From positions 186,001 through 250,000 of the forward strand of contig RHLJ01000004.1 in the NCBI GenBank assembly GCA_003712055.1: 64,000 nt of DNA, read 5' to 3'. This DNA is from Balneola sp. (GTDB lineage Bacteria; Bacteroidota; Rhodothermia; Balneolales; Balneolaceae). The notes beneath the pieces are model-generated. The model ran no database searches. It saw only the letters and a program-made list of their open reading frames with translations, and was not told the DNA's origin. A program made the position numbers and the translations under genes. The stretch's first letter is position 1. Each line of letters starts with the position of its first letter. Positions 13,245 to 58,906 of this stretch are shown here, one piece after another.

Positions 13245-14174
13245 CTATAATTCAATTCGCATTCCTTCAAATGCTACTTTATATCCCAGATTTTCTACTT
13301 GCCTACGCTCCATTCCATTCAGGATTAACGGGTTGGTGTGGTTGAAGTGAATGAAGATGATTTTGGCTTTTTCTGAATCATCCAAATCTTTAAAAAGCTC
13401 CAGGCTTTCTTCAACAAAGGGATGCGGAATTTCACTCATATCTCTTCCAGGGAGTTCGTTGGAATCAAAAAAGGTAGCATCCAGAAAAGCATAATCAACG
13501 TTAGAAATTTCTTCTACAATGCTCCGATCCCAGATATCCCATTTATTGATGTCGGGAATAAACAGCACCTTTTTGTTCTCTGACTCAATTCGATATCCAA
13601 CCGTTTCAGAAAACTCATCCCGATGAGGAACTAAAAAAGGAGTAACAGAAAGAGATTCGGAAATTTGAATGGTGGAATCGGCTGCCTGACCAATAGGGCT
13701 TATGTTTTCAAGGGCGATCAACTGACTCCATGGCCCGTTTTCATGAAGATATAGGCTCATTCGAGGCATAAGATAAACGGGCATGAGGTTTGCTCCCATT
13801 ACTTCTCTTCCCAGATGCATTAAGCCCGCATAATGCCCAATATGAGCATGAGTAACAAATATTCCGGAAAGTTCTTTTTGACCGGAAGCTTTTTGAAGTT
13901 CATGTAGCTGAAATTTGAAATCAGGGGTTGCCTCAAACATCCATTGTTGGTTGGTTTCGGAATCGACTAATCCTAAACTAGTAGCATATCGTTGCTCTGT
14001 CTTTCCCTCCCAAAACTGCATACAATTTATATTTTCACAACCAGCCTGTGGAAAGCCAGCATCTTGTGCGATGCCAAGTACAGTGATGAATTGAGGGGAG
14101 GGAGATTCGCTCTCGTTTGGAGGTTGAGAACAACTTAGTAGAAAAGCTGTAATAAAAAAAAGGCTTAGTTTCAT
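13245..14174 (-). CDS. PqqB-like metallo-beta-lactamase-fold lipoprotein
   Basis: MBL-fold hydrolase resembling PqqB-type proteins. The N-terminus is a lipoprotein signal with lipobox LLSC (cleavage before Cys15), so it is likely membrane-anchored outside the cytoplasm. The early motif AQDAGFPQAGCENINC and the metal site THAHIGHYAGL are visible; the second is HxHxGH where classical MBL enzymes have HxHxDH. Later ligands appear as PHRDEF, IPDIN and IHFNHTNP. No pqqA, C, D or E genes are nearby, so a role in PQQ synthesis is unlikely; an independent hydrolase is more plausible. Confidence 0.78.
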   Translation of the reverse strand: MKLSLFFITAFLLSCSQPPNESESPSPQFITVLGIAQDAGFPQAGCENINCMQFWEGKTEQRYATSLGLVDSETNQQWMFEATPDFKFQLHELQKASGQKELSGIFVTHAHIGHYAGLMHLGREVMGANLMPVYLMPRMSLYLHENGPWSQLIALENISPIGQAADSTIQISESLSVTPFLVPHRDEFSETVGYRIESENKKVLFIPDINKWDIWDRSIVEEISNVDYAFLDATFFDSNELPGRDMSEIPHPFVEESLELFKDLDDSEKAKIIFIHFNHTNPLILNGMERRQVENLGYKVAFEGMRIEL

Positions 14175-15169: not shown

Positions 15170-15691
15170 ATGAAAAATGGACTATTTATTCTGCTTCTGG
15201 CATTAATTGCACTAGGAGCATGCTCCTCAAATAATGATGATGACAATTCACCAACCATAAGCTTCAGGGTGGATGGCAATGAAGTAAGCATCCTGACAAG
15301 GATGGAGCTTCAAGATGCCTTAGACAGTTTCGCCATTACCTATTACGATACTGTGTATGAAAAGGAAAAAAATCTGCGTGCATTCTTGTTGAGCGATGTT
15401 TTGGAACTGGGTTTTTCTGCACAATTACAAGACCATCCGAATGCGACCTTTACCTTTATGGCGCTCGACGGTTTTGAGGATTCAGCAACGGCTGACCAGG
15501 CCAATGAGGTTGGTGGGTATATAGCCTTTGAAGATTTTGACGTAGACGGGATCGAAAACTGGGAGCCAGTTGCTACAGAAAACAATAACGATCCGGCGCC
15601 ATTCTATGTGGTCTGGACTGGAAGCCACCAGGTACCCGATAATTCTTACCCATGGCCGTATCAGCTTTTTGCTGTTAATAGAACGGAGTGA
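15170..15691 (+). CDS. Hypothetical lipoprotein
   Basis: A 173-residue protein with a lipoprotein signal (lipobox ALGAC, Cys18) followed by a Ser/Asn/Asp-rich linker (SSNNDDDNS) typical of surface-exposed Bacteroidota lipoproteins. The globular part (LRAFLLSDVLELGFSAQL, FTFMALDGFEDSATADQ, PFYVVWTG) recalls the substrate-binding fold of molybdopterin oxidoreductases (LSDVL, DGF, PF.VW), but without a cofactor cysteine. That resemblance is only by eye. It is transcribed alone, convergent with the cassette-like genes to its right. Confidence 0.65.
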   Translation: MKNGLFILLLALIALGACSSNNDDDNSPTISFRVDGNEVSILTRMELQDALDSFAITYYDTVYEKEKNLRAFLLSDVLELGFSAQLQDHPNATFTFMALDGFEDSATADQANEVGGYIAFEDFDVDGIENWEPVATENNNDPAPFYVVWTGSHQVPDNSYPWPYQLFAVNRTE

Positions 15692-15721
15692 TGGGTAGTT
15701 AATTTGTTATTTCTCGCTTTA
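15692..15721 (-). other. Weak attC-like half site
   Basis: On the minus strand directly after the TAG stop of the TonB-domain gene the sequence reads GAAATAACAAATTAACTACC, which resembles only the first (R'') part of the attC-like spacers further right. No matching right half is visible. It may mark the end of the cassette run or be chance. Confidence 0.3.
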
Positions 15722-16183
15722 CTATTTGAATTCTATAGGGAAAGTTAAAACCATGGCAACAGCCTTACCATTATATTTTGCCGGATAAACATAAGCTTTC
15801 TCGACTGCTTGAATTGCTTTTTTATCACATTCCTCATGAATACCTCTTCGAAGTTGTGGAGCTTTTACAGTCCCGTCAGAATCCAAAATTACTGCGACGG
15901 CTACTTTTCCACGAACGGGACAAATGAATCCATTTAACACTTTTTTGACAACGGTTTGCTGCAGTAAAGGTTGAATGAGTTTCGGACCTTCAAAATCAGA
16001 GTCACTTGGATTGACTAGAATAAGATTTGGATCAGGCGCTTGTGCATCTAAATCCGTAGTTATATAAGAACCAACTACACCATTAAAATCTGGTTTTGAA
16101 TAAGTAGTTGGTTCAACCATTGGTCGAGAAGTAGAAGCACAACTTCCTAAAACAAAAAAAGATATAATAAAAAGGTTTTTCAT
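15722..16183 (-). CDS. TonB C-terminal-domain lipoprotein, cassette-like
   Basis: A 153-residue protein with a lipoprotein signal (lipobox LGSC, Cys15) and a C-terminal TonB-like domain (about residues 75-152): GKVAVAVILDSDGTVKAPQL, CDKKAIQAVEKA and PAKYNGKAVAMVLTFPIEF match the usual order of this fold. There is no N-terminal membrane helix of classical TonB, so it is not an ordinary energy transducer; TonB-domain lipoproteins of unknown function are common in this phylum. It is the last of five minus-strand genes separated by attC-like spacers. Confidence 0.72.
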   Translation of the reverse strand: MKNLFIISFFVLGSCASTSRPMVEPTTYSKPDFNGVVGSYITTDLDAQAPDPNLILVNPSDSDFEGPKLIQPLLQQTVVKKVLNGFICPVRGKVAVAVILDSDGTVKAPQLRRGIHEECDKKAIQAVEKAYVYPAKYNGKAVAMVLTFPIEFK

Positions 16184-16189
16184 AAGTGT

Positions 16190-16277
16190 TTATAATGCCC
16201 AGTATTTAGATGGCGAGTCTGAGGTTTAAATTAAGGCTCCGAACCACGTTCGATTCCACTTGAAACACTTGTTATGT
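16190..16277 (-). other. attC-like recombination site 1
   Basis: On the minus strand the spacer begins ACATAACAAGTGTTTCAAG and ends CTGGGCATTATAAACACTT. This follows the attC layout: an R''-like core (ACATAAC), a TTTCAAG segment, a variable middle and an R'-like core (CATTATA). AAGTGTTT near one end is complementary to AAACACTT at the other. The TAA stop of the 109-residue gene lies inside the first core, as is common for integron cassettes. Confidence 0.55.
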
Positions 16278-16601
16278 TCTGTTAGCTACCTCTGTAATCA
16301 TTCGAACAAGTTTTTGTGCTTCTTCTTTAGTTAACTTAATCGGTGTCATACTGGCAGCTAATTTTGCGTTTTCTGATAACTCAATACCAATATGCTTTGA
16401 GCCATTTTTGGCCTCAACTACATGGGTGCGTATTACAGATTTAGCAATTCCTTTGGTTTGAATTATTTCTTCACTTGAAGTATGAATAATGGAGCCCCCT
16501 AGCATTCTACCTTTTCCTTTCTTAGAAAACATAGACCAAAAAACGAATGCCATGAAACAAGCAACGAAGATTATTGGAAGAAAATTTAATAGATCATTCA
16601 T
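16272..16601 (-). CDS. Small membrane-anchored protein, cassette-like
   Basis: A 109-residue protein with one N-terminal membrane helix (about residues 5-25, FLPIIFVACFMAFVFWSMF), a basic stretch (SKKGKGR) and a soluble cytoplasmic domain ending in a helix (KEEAQKLVRMITEVANRT). No family is recognised. It is flanked on both sides by attC-like sequences, and its stop codon is embedded in one of them. A mobile-cassette origin is inferred from this arrangement. Confidence 0.55.
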   Translation of the reverse strand: MNDLLNFLPIIFVACFMAFVFWSMFSKKGKGRMLGGSIIHTSSEEIIQTKGIAKSVIRTHVVEAKNGSKHIGIELSENAKLAASMTPIKLTKEEAQKLVRMITEVANRT

Positions 16602-16619
16602 GACTTTTGAATTGTTTAG

Positions 16620-16699
16620 AGAACATAAAGACCCGGTATTTTAAGCGGGACGGATATATTTATGATTTTAGTTTAAGCCTTAAGATGCTTGTTATGTGT
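16620..16699 (-). other. attC-like recombination site 2
   Basis: On the minus strand it starts ACACATAACAAGCATCTTAA and ends ACCGGGTCTTTATGTTC, with an A/T-rich middle. The first half is close to site 1 and to the site at 56340; the second half matches CCGGGTCGTTATGTG of site 4 with one changed base. Confidence 0.58.
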
Positions 16700-16713
16700 T
16701 AATTATGTTACGA

Positions 16714-17526
16714 TTAATTCTCTGAATTCCATTTTTGTAATGATGCATTAACTTTTAAATCACCTTCAAGAAAACCACCAAGTTTAATTTTTTTATTGTT
16801 GATTAATAATATATAGATCAAGATAGTTCTTGCGCCGTATCGACCAACCTCTTGTTCTAAAGTTATTTCTGATATATCCTTTTTCGAAATATGTTTTAAC
16901 CGAAATGGATATTTAAGTGTGAAGTGATCGTTTTTTATTATCAATTCTTGGACCTCAAATAAAAGAGCAAAAGGACAAAGAAGAGCGAACCCGAGAATTA
17001 TAAATCTTGCCCAAAGATCATCACCGTTACTTGGTAAAAAAAGCCCAAAGCCCAACATCATTAAACCAAACACAATCATCAAATACGTTATGAATTTTGA
17101 TCTATGAAAATGATTAAGCCCATCTGCCGAAAATAAGTCTGGACGTTTTTTACGTATGGTTTCAATTAAAAAATGAAAGTTTTCAAGCTGATTCGGTAAG
17201 TACAATTTTTCATTTTGGTTGGTTCGAATTTCAAGCCGAGACATTAACCTATTGTGATAAATACTAACGATGCTTTGAAAATTAATTTTCCTGTCTGTGA
17301 ATAAATGCTTTTCGCGTTTTATGTTTTTTGGTGTAATAATGATTTTCGTAGATGTTTCAATAGCCATCCAAATACTAAATGAGGCGAAGGCAAATAGTAT
17401 TAAACCAATTAGAAACTCTTGAAATACGGCTATTGATCCACCAAATAAAAATAACAATGAACCTAAGTACATCCAGAAACGAGTGATACCAGCAAAACGA
17501 TAAATGATATAGGGTTGGTTTTTCAA
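16714..17526 (-). CDS. Membrane protein with PH-like cytoplasmic parts, cassette-like
   Basis: A 270-residue protein with two pairs of membrane helices (about residues 15-52 and 145-185) and beta-rich regions after each pair (IIITPKNIKREKHLFTDRK, IIKNDHFTLKYPFRLKHISK) that resemble bacterial PH-like domains. Function unknown. The start is a TTG at 17526 (TTGAAAAACCAACC), since no ATG occurs before residue 19, which would cut into the first helix. It is the largest of the five cassette-like genes and lies between attC-like sites. Confidence 0.6.
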   Translation of the reverse strand: MKNQPYIIYRFAGITRFWMYLGSLLFLFGGSIAVFQEFLIGLILFAFASFSIWMAIETSTKIIITPKNIKREKHLFTDRKINFQSIVSIYHNRLMSRLEIRTNQNEKLYLPNQLENFHFLIETIRKKRPDLFSADGLNHFHRSKFITYLMIVFGLMMLGFGLFLPSNGDDLWARFIILGFALLCPFALLFEVQELIIKNDHFTLKYPFRLKHISKKDISEITLEQEVGRYGARTILIYILLINNKKIKLGGFLEGDLKVNASLQKWNSEN

Positions 17527-17540
17527 TTGGAAGATAAATT

Positions 17541-17580
17541 ACTTACAAATACCGACTCAGCTTGAAAGACTTGTTATTTG
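17541..17580 (-). other. attC-like recombination site 3 (short)
   Basis: On the minus strand: AAATAACAAGTCTTTCAAGC followed by TGAGTCGGTATTTGTAAG. The left half agrees with the other sites (ATAACAAG-x-x-TTTCAAGC); the right half is degenerate (GGTATTTGT instead of GGTCGTTATGT). The TAA stop of the upstream gene falls inside the first core. Confidence 0.5.
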
Positions 17581-18113
17581 TTTGATTTAAAGTTGTAAAT
17601 CAGTTTAGTAAGTGTCTCAGTTTCTTTATTCAAAATTGTAGAATCGAATTCCTCCCCAAAACAAAAGATATCATCGTGACTAAAAAGTAAGATCCAATTC
17701 AGTGATTGATCCCAAACTAATACATCATGAGCGAAGAATAGGTTTTCAGAGAATTTTATAATCATTTTCCAAGTCATTATAAATCCTGAATCGGGCTGTG
17801 AAACCCAAAATACTTGACGGTCGAAAGGAATTCCTCTTTGATACAACCATTTCTTGGTTTTCTCTTTATTGGCAAATTTCAGTTCTGAGTGCTTCTTGAA
17901 ATACTTCTTAATGTTTGCGATTGAATGGAATTGTTTTTGGGTTCTTTCAACATTCCATAAGTATTGAGAAGCATTATTGTTAAGAGGAATAATTTGATCT
18001 AAAAACTCTGTTGAAATTAGTCCGTTGGCATCTTCAAACATCCATTTCAAAGAATGAGATTCTAATGAGGTTGAAAACTCAAATAAATTATTAAGCGTTA
18101 TTTTTTTATCCAT
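17574..18113 (-). CDS. Hypothetical soluble protein, cassette-like
   Basis: A 179-residue protein with no signal peptide or membrane helix, rich in aromatic residues (WMFEDANGL, WLYQRGIPFDRQVFWVSQPD, SLNWILLFSHDD). I recognise no family with confidence; the final part, with its acidic and aromatic surface, is reminiscent of small cytoplasmic immunity-type proteins, but this is only an impression. The ATG at 18113 is chosen over a TTG one codon earlier. It is flanked by attC-like sites. Confidence 0.58.
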   Translation of the reverse strand: MDKKITLNNLFEFSTSLESHSLKWMFEDANGLISTEFLDQIIPLNNNASQYLWNVERTQKQFHSIANIKKYFKKHSELKFANKEKTKKWLYQRGIPFDRQVFWVSQPDSGFIMTWKMIIKFSENLFFAHDVLVWDQSLNWILLFSHDDIFCFGEEFDSTILNKETETLTKLIYNFKSNK

Positions 18114-18129
18114 CAATTGATTTAGAAAA

Positions 18130-18164
18130 GCACATAACGACCCGGCTTAAAATGTTTGTTATAT
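18130..18164 (-). other. attC-like recombination site 4 (best match)
   Basis: On the minus strand: ATATAACAAACATTTTAAGC then CGGGTCGTTATGTGC. This is the most canonical of the set: R''-like ATATAAC, a spacer with TTTTAAGC, and R'-like GTTATGT preceded by CCGGGTC, as at the right ends of attC and Vibrio VCR sites. It is short, lacking the long variable middle. Confidence 0.6.
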
Positions 18165-18173
18165 CATCGCTTG

Positions 18174-18707
18174 CTAGTTTAGGTTTAAACTGGTTTTGCC
18201 AAGCTTATTTAATTCAGAATCTAGTTTATCCAATCTATAAAAATTAGTGACTAGCTCCCATAAAAATGGATTATCGTATCTGAAATATAATTCATCATCA
18301 ATAAGCTTTGCATTGGTCAGGTCTTTGAAAAATAATTTTCTTAAGACAACCTTCTCAGTATTACGGTCAACAATTAAAACTCTTGTATATGTAGGTGTTG
18401 CAAAAAACCAAATTCCGTCGTCAAGTGTATTGTAGCCGGTTAGTACAACAAAATATTTTTCATTGAAAGAGGTGTATTGATAACGTTCTGAAAGACTGGG
18501 ATAGATATCTTTCATTCTTTTTGCAATGCCAGTAGATTGTATTGCTTCGGATAAATCATCTTGATCTGGATTCTGATAAGACCATTCTGAAAGTGTAATA
18601 GCATCCTTATCCAATTTTTCAAAGCCTGACTCCAAAACCAATTTTAAAACCAAGTAGCCAACCCCAATTAAAGCTAAGGTAGCAAGTATGATTTTATAGT
18701 ATTCCAT
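18174..18707 (-). CDS. Hypothetical protein with N-terminal membrane anchor, cassette-like
   Basis: A 177-residue protein with one N-terminal hydrophobic helix (about residues 5-24, IILATLALIGVGYLVLKLVL), then a soluble domain of mixed strands (KYFVVLTGYNTLDDGIWFFA, RVLIVDRNTEKVVLRKLFF). No family recognised. It is the first gene of the minus-strand cassette-like run. In its 5' flank (18717-18730, minus strand GTTGGCGTTTTACC) there is an R'-like end reminiscent of VCR sites. Confidence 0.58.
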   Translation of the reverse strand: MEYYKIILATLALIGVGYLVLKLVLESGFEKLDKDAITLSEWSYQNPDQDDLSEAIQSTGIAKRMKDIYPSLSERYQYTSFNEKYFVVLTGYNTLDDGIWFFATPTYTRVLIVDRNTEKVVLRKLFFKDLTNAKLIDDELYFRYDNPFLWELVTNFYRLDKLDSELNKLGKTSLNLN

Positions 18708-18816
18708 GGATTAGTTGGTAAAACGCCAACGTGTTTAAGTTCTGGATCTATATAAGATTTTATTCAGTCTCGAAACTAGTATGCACTGAACTCAATTTAG
18801 TGTCCGATCGGTGATG

Positions 18817-19926
18817 CTAACTAAGCTGAAGCATCCTCTCTAAAGAAAGAACCGCATTTTTAGTTACTTCTTCAGAGACCGTAATGTGGTTTACTACTTC
18901 ACCTTGTTCCAGTTTTTCGAGGCTCCATAATAGATGTGGAAGATCAATCCGGTTCATGGTCAGGCACGGGCACATGAAAGGATTCAGAGAAACAATCTCT
19001 TTGTCAGGATGCTCATCAATAATCCGGTTTACCAGGTTCATCTCTGTACCAATGGCCCACTTTGTTCCAGCGGGAGCATTCTTGATGGTATCGATAATGT
19101 AATTTGTTGAACCGGCATAGTCGGATGCCTGAACTACATCGAAGGTGCATTCAGGATGGACAATAATGTTTATCTCAGGATCTTTTTTTCTCAAATTCTC
19201 GACATGCTGCACATTAAACTTCTCGTGTACCGAGCAGTGGCCTTTCCAAAGAATCACCTTAACATCTTCCCATTCACCCTCATACTCAAAACTTTGAGTG
19301 AGAGGAGCATAAACGGCCATGTGTTCCAACGGTATTCCTAAATCATAAGCAGTATTTCTCCCAAGGTGCTGGTCGGGTAAGAAAAGGATGCGTTCTTTTT
19401 GAGTGAAAGCCCACTCCAACATTTTTTTCACATTTCCGGAGGTCACGCATGCGCCTCCATGTTTTCCCACAAATCCTTTAATGGCTGCTGTGGAATTCAC
19501 ATAGGTAAGAGGAAGGATAGTATCTCCCCAGATAGCTTGCATTTTCTCCCAGCCCTTTTCGGTTTGGTCAATATCAGCCATATCGGCCATAGAACAGCCG
19601 GCGCGTAGGTCAGGTAAAATTACCTTCTGATTTTGCTTGGTAAGCATATCTGCCGTTTCGGCCATGAAGTGTACTCCACAGAAAACGATATACTCGGCAT
19701 CTGGCATATCTGCACAGATTTGAGCGAGTTTTAGGGAGTCGCCGCGGGCGTCAGCAAATTGAATGACCTCATCCTTTTGATAATGATGGCCCGGGATAAA
19801 TAGTCGAGATCCGAAATTGTTTTTTATCTCTCTAACACGTTGTTCCATTTCCTGCACAGAAAGCGTGGAATATCTCTCAGGAAGGGAAACATCGGATTCA
19901 ATTTCTAAAATATCTAATACGTCCAT
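18817..19926 (-). CDS. nadA: Quinolinate synthase NadA
   Basis: Condenses iminoaspartate with dihydroxyacetone phosphate to quinolinate, using a [4Fe-4S] cluster, in de novo NAD synthesis. At 369 residues it is the long form, like the B. subtilis enzyme. The N-terminal [39 protein letters not shown] and FMCPCLTMN motifs are all present; by comparison with the B. subtilis positions the cluster ligands should be Cys111, Cys231 and one of Cys319/Cys321. It follows nadC by nine bases in the same direction, so the two are one operon. nadB is not in the window. Confidence 0.97.
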
Positions 19927-56184: not shown

Positions 56185-56258
56185 GCGCCCGTAGCTCAAC
56201 TGGATAGAGTACCAGGTTTCGGCCCTGGGGGTTGGGGGTTCGAACCCTCCCGGGCGTA
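56185..56258 (+). tRNA. tRNA-Arg (anticodon UCG)
   Basis: All four stems fold: acceptor GCGCCCG with CGGGCGT, D stem GCTC/GAGT, anticodon stem CCAGG/CCTGG with loop TTTCGGC (anticodon TCG, decodes CGN), T stem GGGGG/CCTCC with loop TTCGAAC, discriminator A. No CCA is encoded. Confidence 0.95.
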
Positions 56259-56268
56259 CAATACACCT

Positions 56269-56307
56269 ACCCTAACTTAATTTTTAATATTGAGTTAGGG
56301 TTTTTTG
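56269..56307 (+). terminator. Terminator downstream of tRNA-Arg
   Basis: ACCCTAACTTAA and a TGAGTTAGGGT right arm form a stem with an AT-rich loop, followed by six T. It is placed where a tRNA terminator is expected. Confidence 0.8.
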
Positions 56308-56339
56308 TTTCAGTAACTGAATATTTTTATTGCCACAAA

Positions 56340-56387
56340 GCAAAGTGCGGACCCTAGCTATGCCCAATTTGAAATGCTTGTTATATG
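56340..56387 (-). other. attC-like sequence downstream of the TIMP-like gene
   Basis: On the minus strand, right after the gene's stop: CATATAACAAGCATTTCAAA, then TTGGGCATAGCTAGGGTCCG. The first 18 bases match the spacers at 16272-16277, 16699, 17580 and 18164 (consensus ATAACAAGC-x-TTTCAA). The right half is not obvious. It lies about 80 bases from tRNA-Arg. Confidence 0.5.
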
Positions 56388-56388
56388 G

Positions 56389-56847
56389 TTATAATGAGTT
56401 TAAAAAATTCATGGTCTCTTTTCCTAATAGCTCAAGTTCGTAATCGGTATCGTTTTTTGGATTAGTATGGATGGTAGGTGAACAGATGCTTGTATATATT
56501 TTTTTGTCACCTTTATCCGATTTCGAGTAATACCCAAATATTGCATACTCACTGTTTTTTTCGAAGGAGAACCCACAGGCTTCTGGATGACCGTCTGTAA
56601 AAACGAAAGTTTTATTTTCTTGAATACCTTTGAATGTTTGGATGACATCAAATCGGACTTTAGTGAGTCCTTCAGTAAATAACCCTCTGCCTTCAAAAAA
56701 AGATTGTTCGCCAATCGAAACCGCTTTCCCAATAAAAACTACTTCGTAAGTTTGATAAGCTTCTTCTATTTCATAGCCCATACAGCTGCAAGCATAGGCA
56801 GGAAAAGAGAGCATTAATAAAAAAAGAGATATAATAATTGTTTTCAT
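56389..56847 (-). CDS. Secreted TIMP/netrin-like (NTR) domain protein
   Basis: A 152-residue exported protein from ATG 56847. After a signal peptide ending PAYA the mature protein would begin Cys-Ser-Cys (ACSCMGYEIEEAYQ), which is the N-terminal signature of TIMP/NTR inhibitors. The pattern VVFIGKAVSI, VRFDVIQTFKGI and HPEACGFSFEKNSEYAIFGY follows the beta-strands and Cys positions of that fold. Longer frames to 57006 are rejected because the signal peptide starts at 56847. Bacterial TIMP-like proteins are of unknown function; inhibition of metallopeptidases is an inference. An attC-like spacer follows its stop. Confidence 0.68.
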   Translation of the reverse strand: MKTIIISLFLLMLSFPAYACSCMGYEIEEAYQTYEVVFIGKAVSIGEQSFFEGRGLFTEGLTKVRFDVIQTFKGIQENKTFVFTDGHPEACGFSFEKNSEYAIFGYYSKSDKGDKKIYTSICSPTIHTNPKNDTDYELELLGKETMNFLNSL

Positions 56848-56920
56848 GAAGTCATGAGTCTGGAGATTAAAACAACCAGAAAGGTATTCGAGTTTTTTTG
56901 ATATGCTTATATGTATCCGA

Positions 56921-58906
56921 TTAGTTTTCAAATGAAAGTTTCTTTTTATATAAATAGTCAGAGATTTTGAATAAAGCATACTCCGGATCATCTGCATAAT
57001 CCTCATAAAACTTTCCTTTGGTGAGTTTATTAATCAAACGACCAAGAGCGAATGAATTAGTTTTATATTCTAATCCATTATAGTTGATTACCCACGGTGT
57101 ATACAAATAGTTTGGGATATCATCAGAGTTAGAAATAATTAGCTTTGACCCATTCTTGAAATCAAAGATAAGTTGATGCCAGATTTGGGTTGTACTCCAA
57201 TTTCCATATCCTATGGAAAAAACATCATTGATTACACTATCATCGATAGACTCGATTGAATCTGCCACACTTTTGTAGAAACTAAAATCGGTATTCTCTC
57301 CAGGGAATTGATATGGGTTCTCAAAGTCAAACTGATCAATTCCATTTTCTTTTATCTCTTCTTCTTTTTGAGATATAAAATCCTTGTAATCAGAAATTAT
57401 AGATGGTTTGAGCAGTAAATCATCCACTGATAATTCATCTAATCTGGCTTGATTAGCTTCAGAAATGATCTCCTTAACTAATTTATGATTAAGTATTCTG
57501 GGCATACTATTTAGAAAACTTCTGTCACTTTTGGAAAGCTCTAAAAAGGAACCATTTAAGTTGTAGATTCTTGTTTGATCATCATAATGAAAGCAACCAA
57601 GGCTACCATACCCAATTGTTAGGCTTTTCAATTCTAAATCTTGAGGAAAGATTTTATCAGGTAGATCGTATTTAATAAACTCATTAGTTTCGGTATTTAA
57701 CTCAACTCTGTTTTCCAGTGTTTGGTCGGCAATGACTAACTTCCCATTGAATACAGAAGCATTACCTATAGGAAATTGAGTTTCGTTTATTCTAGCCCAC
57801 CTTTTATTCTCCAATTTCAAAATATCAACACCAGAAAAACCATATGTTTCTCCTTTAAAATCAACTTTAGTATAGGGTTCAGGGATTGGGATATTATTAG
57901 TAACTAATGGAGAACTTTTAATCCTTTGGTTGACAATTTGGAATATTTCATCTCCAGCGTAAACATATAATGTAGAATCAATTACATTAAGTGCTTTAGG
58001 GGGATTTAATAGTGTTCTTTCAGATGTCCAGGTGGGAGTTAAGTTTTCATCTAACACTTTAACGTTATAGTCACGAGTTATCAGGAATCCCTGGTTATCA
58101 GATACCTCAAAATCAATTATATCTGGTAAAGGAGTCCAGTTGATGTCATTGTTCTGCGTTATAAAAACTCTTTGTTGCTGACTGACAAGATAATAGTCAC
58201 CAAGTATCCTAATTTTATCAATTCTTGGCTTACTATCATTAGAGACCACACGATATTTTTTTTGGTAAAGAGGGGTTTCTAGTATTTCCCAAGTTTCTGC
58301 ATTATCAAATGTTCTGTGAATTGTATTCCAATTAGAAGCAAATAGGCCAATTTTTTCGTCATTTGAAAAATGGATACTCATGATTCGACGATTAGCCATA
58401 TTTTCAATTTTAGGCTTGGCGCTCCAGGTAAGTCCATAATCTTCAGTATAGTATATTAGTTGAGAACCTCCACTCATCCACCCCTTTCCATTGTGCTTGA
58501 AATAAGTAGCATCAATCCAACTACTCTCCATCCCAAAAATTACTTTATCCCAGGATTTTCCTCCGTCTTCTGAGCGATATATAAAATTTTGTTTTCCATT
58601 CTCTTGAATAAAACCGGAAATGATCAGGACATTTTCGGACAAAAAGTTAATCCGTTCAAAGTTTTTACCAGAATCAAAAGCCAAAGGATCAAGTGAACCA
58701 AAGGGCCCAATATGCCATAAATCCCCAAACTCTTTAGTGTAGTATACATTTCCAGCTTTTGATGCCATCCATATTTCACCTAAGGGTGATAATCCAAGTT
58801 CAGTTACATAACCTTTAACTGGAAGTCTGGCATGATACTTATCCTGAGCCATTCCAAAGTGCTGGAACACAAATACAAGTAATATCGATAGAAGGTATCG
58901 TATCAT
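56921..58906 (-). CDS. Secreted BNR/beta-propeller repeat protein
   Basis: A 661-residue exported protein (signal peptide ending GMAQ) with BNR/Asp-box repeats: SEDGGKSWDK, TEDYGLTWSA, FDNAETWEIL and DLWHIGPFG, each S/T-x-D-x-G-x-x-W. The first 300 residues look like a sialidase-fold beta-propeller such as Ycf48-type proteins; the C-terminal half is not recognised. No C-terminal T9SS sorting domain is present. Function unknown; it may be a surface or photosystem-like assembly factor, but photosynthesis is not implied. Confidence 0.72.
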   Translation of the reverse strand: MIRYLLSILLVFVFQHFGMAQDKYHARLPVKGYVTELGLSPLGEIWMASKAGNVYYTKEFGDLWHIGPFGSLDPLAFDSGKNFERINFLSENVLIISGFIQENGKQNFIYRSEDGGKSWDKVIFGMESSWIDATYFKHNGKGWMSGGSQLIYYTEDYGLTWSAKPKIENMANRRIMSIHFSNDEKIGLFASNWNTIHRTFDNAETWEILETPLYQKKYRVVSNDSKPRIDKIRILGDYYLVSQQQRVFITQNNDINWTPLPDIIDFEVSDNQGFLITRDYNVKVLDENLTPTWTSERTLLNPPKALNVIDSTLYVYAGDEIFQIVNQRIKSSPLVTNNIPIPEPYTKVDFKGETYGFSGVDILKLENKRWARINETQFPIGNASVFNGKLVIADQTLENRVELNTETNEFIKYDLPDKIFPQDLELKSLTIGYGSLGCFHYDDQTRIYNLNGSFLELSKSDRSFLNSMPRILNHKLVKEIISEANQARLDELSVDDLLLKPSIISDYKDFISQKEEEIKENGIDQFDFENPYQFPGENTDFSFYKSVADSIESIDDSVINDVFSIGYGNWSTTQIWHQLIFDFKNGSKLIISNSDDIPNYLYTPWVINYNGLEYKTNSFALGRLINKLTKGKFYEDYADDPEYALFKISDYLYKKKLSFEN

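Follow-up and report, generated by a model that had tools for sequence, protein, structure and literature searches.

Several routes have been proposed by which clusters of attC sites lacking an integron integrase (CALINs) could arise; the available part of PMC8618304 names off-target insertion, loss of the integrase gene intI, and rearrangement. In Xanthomonas, as described in the portion of PMC12444791 at hand, the integron platform is located beside ilvD, and CALINs are found at recurring conserved loci. The cluster considered here lies within a stretch of 64,000 nucleotides from Balneola sp. (contig RHLJ01000004.1, positions 186,001 to 250,000), hereafter referred to as the window. Next to nadA, five small genes (orfA to orfE) are separated by attC-like spacers. 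This cluster is very probably the remnant of an integron cassette array, in other words a relic CALIN, because its spacers derive from attC sites, it is an insertion, intI is absent, the hairpins are decayed, and orfA occurs at different loci under purifying selection. CALINs are a known kind of element. The system in the family Balneolaceae that lies behind this cluster is new.

In the open literature, to which the search was confined (subscription papers being outside its scope), no paper on an integron or attC in Balneola, Balneolaceae, or Balneolaeota was found, and none combined integron, attI, and "orphan attI". Scattered attI copies were the subject of none of the titles listed. The available part of PMC7923331 contains no mention of Balneola relatives among the terms looked for.

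The nadA cluster and the homology of its spacers

An earlier note on this DNA, prepared from the letters alone, described five minus-strand genes at 15722-18707 with spacers in the layout of attC sites. The genes and the four spacers between them are present in the sequence (Table 1). The quoted spacer start, ATAACAARNNTYTYAAG, is found in four spacers; the part of the description that did not hold concerns the site at 16679-16695, which reads TCTTAAG rather than TTTYAAG. The quoted endings are there as well, namely GGGTCGTTATGTG at 18132, GGGTCTTTATGTT at 16623, and GGGCATTATA at 16190, and the fourth spacer (17547) ends with GAGTCGGTATTTG. For two genes (17574 and 16272), a TAA stop codon lies within the core as stated. 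Overlooked was the truncated attC ahead of the first gene, s0, at 18718-18818. Exact matches to the left half, ATAACAARNNTYTYAAG, number four in the 3.63-Mb genome, all of them inside the nadA cluster. With one mismatch allowed, the genome contains 12 matches versus five for a reversed control. With two mismatches, the window contains six versus a shuffle mean of 2.72, a count reached in 5 of 100 shuffles. The loose pattern is thus only mildly enriched in the window, and the motif alone cannot carry the case.

For a stricter comparison, a reference set of 42 attC sites, 80-150 nt in length, was taken from the intI-linked arrays of four Balneolaceae (G139, G026, G065, and G054). These sites have TAACAAGCGTTTCAAG...CCGCTTAAACGCCGGGTCGTTA in common. 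With the arms set out by hand and an extra base left unpaired, pairing holds in 99.0% of 672 cells; two pairs carry changes in both partners, and the figure for slid versions is 25-44%. The covariance model built from these sites, R1, includes no sequence from the window. Its best match in the window is s4 (16190-16275), with a score of 46.6 bits and an E value of 8.5e-10. There follow a second locus at 56270-56384 (23.9 bits, E 7e-4), s1 (20.3 bits, E 0.006), s3 (18.9 bits, E 0.014), and 17547-17671 (14.7 bits, E 0.18), in which s2 is covered merely as the 3' part. The next best score in the window is 10.4. Across the whole genome, R1 gives five matches at E <= 5, four of which lie within the window. 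A covariance search of the kind proposed in the earlier note thus bears out its description of the spacers.

Searches with nhmmer and pairwise alignments lead to the same family of sites. With nhmmer, s4 is matched at E 2.3e-14, s0 by class c110 at 18763-18807 (E 6e-4 on the window and 0.007 in a larger search), s3 by c110 at E 0.024, and s2 by c88 at 17552-17576 with E 0.11; the reversed window gives nothing below E 0.28. Alignment to the relatives' attC sites beats all 50 shuffles for s0, s1, s2, s3, s4, and s6, the last of these belonging to the second locus. The score of s0 is 86.4 versus a shuffle maximum of 53.6, that of s2 is 47.3 versus 36.2, and that of s1 exceeds its maximum by a narrow margin (39.5 versus 34.4). 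Note that s3 shares CTTAAACTAAAATC-TAAAT with a relative's locus (L079 8459-8569). A candidate attC after orfA, s5, was rejected, its score of 42.8 falling below the shuffle maximum of 49.6; neither by alignment against shuffles nor by nhmmer does the stretch after this last gene contain a recognizable attC. Rfam yielded chance matches only. These comparisons show, at the level of sequence homology, that the cluster spacers descend from the attC family of the intI-linked Balneolaceae arrays. That the spacers are chance intergenic similarities or an unrelated short repeat is extremely improbable; the weak enrichment of the loose left-half pattern would fit such an origin, but the homology with intI-linked attC sites extends over 80-100 nt at the level of individual classes, and s0, s4, and s6 score far above their shuffles.

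Table 1. Features of the nadA cluster and of the second attC-bearing locus in the window.
Feature	Position	Strand	Remarks
nadA, chromosomal host gene, left (upstream) border	18817..19926	-	Pfam NadA 6e-97; orthologues in 9/9 relatives' loci
attC remnant s0, 110-nt class	18718..18818	-	5' half largely gone; abuts/overlaps nadA stop codon
orfE, cassette gene, 177 aa, function unknown	18174..18707	-	no Pfam or NCBIfam family
attC remnant s1, collapsed	18132..18162	-	R''-L'' fused to R'-side spacer and R'; lacks the hairpin arm
orfD, cassette gene, weakly DUF2947-like	17574..18116	-	PF11163 E 0.0035, under cut-off
attC remnant s2, collapsed	17547..17577	-	exact left-half match
orfC, cassette gene, hydrophobic protein, function unknown	16714..17526	-	no family above cut-off
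attC remnant s3, 110-nt class, internal deletion	16623..16695	-	covariance model and nhmmer c110
orfB, cassette gene, function unknown	16272..16601	-	no family
attC remnant s4, 88-nt class, mutated over its full length retained	16190..16275	-	covariance model and nhmmer
orfA, cassette gene, lipoprotein-like, TonB C-terminal domain	15722..16183	-	PF03544 1.1e-11
Right border	15692..15721	-	ATAACAA at 15704-15710; no significant attC
Chromosomal gene, right border	15170..15691	+	83% identical orthologue in G135 (L068 4243-4761)
attC remnant s6, 122-nt class, 3' part lost	56299..56383	-	nhmmer c122 positions 2-87, E 1.9e-11
Cassette gene, secreted, Cys-rich, sub-threshold TIMP-like	56389..56844	-	PF00965 E 7.5e-4, under cut-off

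The nadA locus of relatives was compared as well. In a genome of the same genus (G135), nadA (ending at L068 4220) and the orthologue of the 15170 gene lie 23 bp apart and represent an empty site. In a second congener (G187), the five cluster genes are absent between nadA and the next gene. R1 detects attC at none of 13 relatives' nadA loci, a sample that omits L094 (on the same contig as L068), L057-L066, L097, L100, and L101. In the presence/absence check suggested in the earlier note, the cluster is not at the same place in relatives. The comparison shows it to be an insertion between nadA and the following gene.

A recognizable integrase gene is missing not merely from the neighborhood, as had been claimed, but from the entire genome and from both congeners. 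No similarity to IntI below E 0.4 occurs in the window. Nothing in the 3.63-Mb genome reaches the TIGR02249 cut-off, although five tyrosine-recombinase matches are present, and at E 1e-30 intI is found in none of the three genomes of the genus. By comparison, 105 of 394 genomes of the phylum pass the TIGR02249 cut-off. Dispersed attC matches (R1, E <= 5) number 13 in G135, seven in G187, and five in the genome of the window.

Decay of the attC sites and the ends of the cluster

Folding of the bottom strands, another check suggested in the earlier note, went against the expectation for working sites. None of the six window sites gives an attC hairpin, whereas all four of the relatives' sites that were folded do, with R and L arms visible. 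The minimum free energies of the latter are -14 to -18 kcal/mol, in contrast to -6.5 kcal/mol for s4. In both s1 and s2, the entire stretch separating L'' from the R'-side spacer has been lost, and no arm remains. The losses elsewhere are an internal deletion in s3, the 3' part in s6, and the 5' half in s0. The window sites are decayed and, as judged from their predicted folding, are not attC-competent. It is very unlikely that the cluster is still active as a CALIN, with attC sites available for recombination should an integrase enter the cell. The full length of s4 and its two nearly intact end boxes would be in keeping with such activity, but its bottom strand, like the others, does not fold as an attC, and s1 and s2 are armless.

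The ends of the cluster bear on how it came to lie beside nadA. One explanation is that an array piece broken inside attC hairpins was joined at nadA, or that deletions with their ends in attC hairpins shortened a longer array; we consider this to be quite possible, and hold it neither for probable nor for improbable. Several clusters in the intI-less genus open with a 5'-truncated attC near the upstream stop codon (nadA 18807; L225, L226, and L227 in G187; L221 in G135), and in several the truncated site lies within a few nucleotides of it. Several close with an attC that lacks its 3' part (window 56299; L224, L226, and L228), and the internal collapses of s1 and s2 belong in the same category. 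On the other hand, intI-bearing genera likewise have clusters with truncated right ends (L238, L240, and L248), and the breakpoints vary, the one at metK in G135 being ∼54 nt from the stop codon.

A more doubtful, though still tenable, explanation is off-target insertion by IntI at an arbitrary, attG-like chromosomal site next to nadA with no attI involved. There is no attI-like site near the cluster, nor any in the genome, and the lack of attC at the 13 relatives' nadA loci argues against a shared hotspot. After an off-target insertion, the first gene is expected to lie immediately at a GTT junction, and the right end to carry a complete attC. At nadA, by contrast, the left border consists of a 3' attC fragment, and the right border is without attC.

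Cassette genes and further attC remnants

When the joined cassette proteins were compared with 92 genomes of the family, a relative of orfA with ∼70% identity was found in G135 on another contig (C5) and at a different locus. The attC ahead of it there belongs to class 122, and the one ahead of orfA in the window to class 88; at the DNA level, the two copies match from the ATG onward. The G135 locus has an exact attI-like site at its head, followed by a first gene. Over 153 codons, the ratio of nonsynonymous to synonymous substitution rates (dN/dS) for the pair is 0.15, and orfA is, on this estimate, under purifying selection. Relatives of orfD (45% in G038 and G054) and of orfE (37-39% in G089) have no attC nearby, and for orfB and orfC the 394 phylum genomes offer no further relative at E 1e-8. 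PHROGs gave nothing for six proteins. As a separate observation, small genes that look GIY-YIG-like by eye lie in or beside cassette clusters of G135 (L219 7737-8027, L222 4727-5026, and L223 6161-6451), and those of L219 and L223 begin with almost identical residues.

Several points weigh against interpreting the cluster as an array remnant. The weak sites are individually weak (s1 E 0.006, s3 0.014, and s2 0.11 by nhmmer), s0 is not picked up by R1, and when E is scaled to the whole genome, s4 alone stays below 0.01 with that model. None of orfB to orfE has a relative in any of the intI-linked arrays compared, and those that orfD and orfE do have elsewhere sit away from attC. The genus is represented by three genomes only. 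Finally, of the two components of a complete integron, intI and attI, the genome provides no match above the cut-off to the first and none to the second; with no attI at the cluster either, an origin of the nadA cluster itself from a satellite attI would be hypothetical.

The relic CALIN interpretation would entail the following course of events. An ancestor's integrase would have assembled the array, and intI would then have been lost in the genus, at which point array turnover presumably stopped. The attC sites would have drifted, their hairpins being lost through deletions with breakpoints often within the hairpin, and the cassette genes would have remained as ordinary chromosomal genes.

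The second locus adjoins a tRNA-Arg gene and comprises the TIMP-like gene, an attC remnant, and a gene encoding a 661-residue BNR-repeat protein (56185-56259, 56389-58906). Neither the TIMP-like nor the BNR-repeat gene was found at the orthologous tRNA-Arg position in G135 or G187. The left half noted earlier beside the 56389 gene is real (56368-56384) and forms part of the longer remnant s6. Inspection by eye had suggested a decayed attC upstream of that gene, but nhmmer detected none there at E < 1. The genome contains a third attC fragment at L259 1873-1914 (C3, ∼211.4 kb; nhmmer E 5.6e-5). Downstream of metK in this genome, a supposed attI remnant picked out by eye did not reach significance (358 of 1000 shuffles).

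attI-like sites in the Balneolaceae and comparison with described systems

In the four genomes checked (G026, G054, G065, and G139), the integron platform, made up of intI and attI, adjoins metK, and cassette traces lie downstream of metK in G135, G187, and G159. An attI-like sequence, TTGTTYGGATAATATTATGTTA, also heads cassette clusters away from intI. With up to three mismatches, this pattern is matched at 70 places, spread over 28 of the 92 family genomes, in contrast to four for a control pattern. A total of 58 of the 70 sites were examined; the 12 left out were one each in G406, G417, G423, G301, G428, G430, G199, G432, and G183, and three in G089. An intact intI adjoins four of the 58. 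Beside one of the remaining 54 lies a 33-residue IntI fragment, which hints that the orphan sites may be platform duplications that have lost intI.

The orphan sites carry two of the features by which an attI is recognized, namely the intI-adjacent sequence (22-nt core) and cassettes downstream in the same orientation. An attC on the same strand follows within 6 kb in 44 of the 58 sites, and one on the opposite strand in none; a same-strand attC within 2 kb upstream occurs in two. The other 14 have no downstream attC, some with little sequence before the contig end. Similarity to an intI-linked attI extends over at least 60 nt in 31 sites, a number that includes a pair of intI-linked sites matching one another, and the remainder share less, mostly the 22-nt core alone. 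An open reading frame follows 56 of the 58 sites, which is weak evidence since the same is true of 620 of 1160 random positions.

Cassette exchange is apparent at the crtI locus (G026, G054, G159, and G096). The 400 nt upstream of the core are 83-92% identical, and the 300 nt after it are at the random level (0.59-0.64 versus a mean of 0.61). The cassettes differ between genomes, with breaks at G|TTA, except for one pair (G054 and G159) with the same cassette. In G135 and G187, the same pattern is seen at the AKR-SDR locus (0.77 and 0.61). On the basis of the sequence of the orphan sites and the exchange at this junction, we infer that the integrase would serve them in trans. A slight preference can be expressed for a multi-locus Balneolaceae integron, in which one integrase would insert cassettes both at the platform attI and at scattered attI copies with their own changing arrays, and in which clusters such as that of the window would be satellite remnants after intI loss.

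Two g2-genus attI sites, in L090 (reverse-strand position 13774) and at L244 8759, are closest to the intI-linked attI of a g5 genome, and both have the same first cassette. This suggests that an attI-headed block has been transferred.

CALINs are frequently encountered, and there is debate about how they arise; the Balneolaceae offer a concrete origin in attI copies away from intI with species-specific cassettes. If the integrase does work in trans, one enzyme runs several chromosomal gene-capture sites. The genus of the window provides a natural series from intact attC sites to collapsed remnants, useful for learning how cassettes become ordinary genes.

The attC sites of sedentary chromosomal integrons of the Vibrio cholerae type, the VCRs, begin with ATAACAA, pair their arms with an unpaired extra base, and are nearly identical within a genome. 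The Balneolaceae sites seem to share these traits but differ in having several length classes (88, 110, 122, and 126 nt) on the same arms.

As far as the available part of PMC8618304 describes them, CALINs resemble the window cluster in consisting of attC-separated small genes without intI. They differ in that the attC hairpins of the window cluster are decayed; moreover, many of the relatives' clusters have an orphan attI-like site at their head, an origin beyond those given in that part. In both Xanthomonas (PMC12444791, in the portion at hand) and the Balneolaceae, an ancestral platform lies by a housekeeping gene and integrase-less clusters occur at recurring loci. The Balneolaceae loci combine an attI-like site, a conserved flank, and exchanged cassettes, whereas no attI is given for the Xanthomonas loci in that portion. 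Events between attI and attI-like sites have been reported (PMC10127599, as far as the available part goes). The attG secondary sites and delta-attI cassettes in the accessible part of PMC12901181 are akin to the orphan attI sites in that IntI acts, or in the Balneolaceae would act, outside a canonical attI. In contrast to these, the orphan sites match the intI-linked attI over the 22-nt core, many of them over 60-180 nt.

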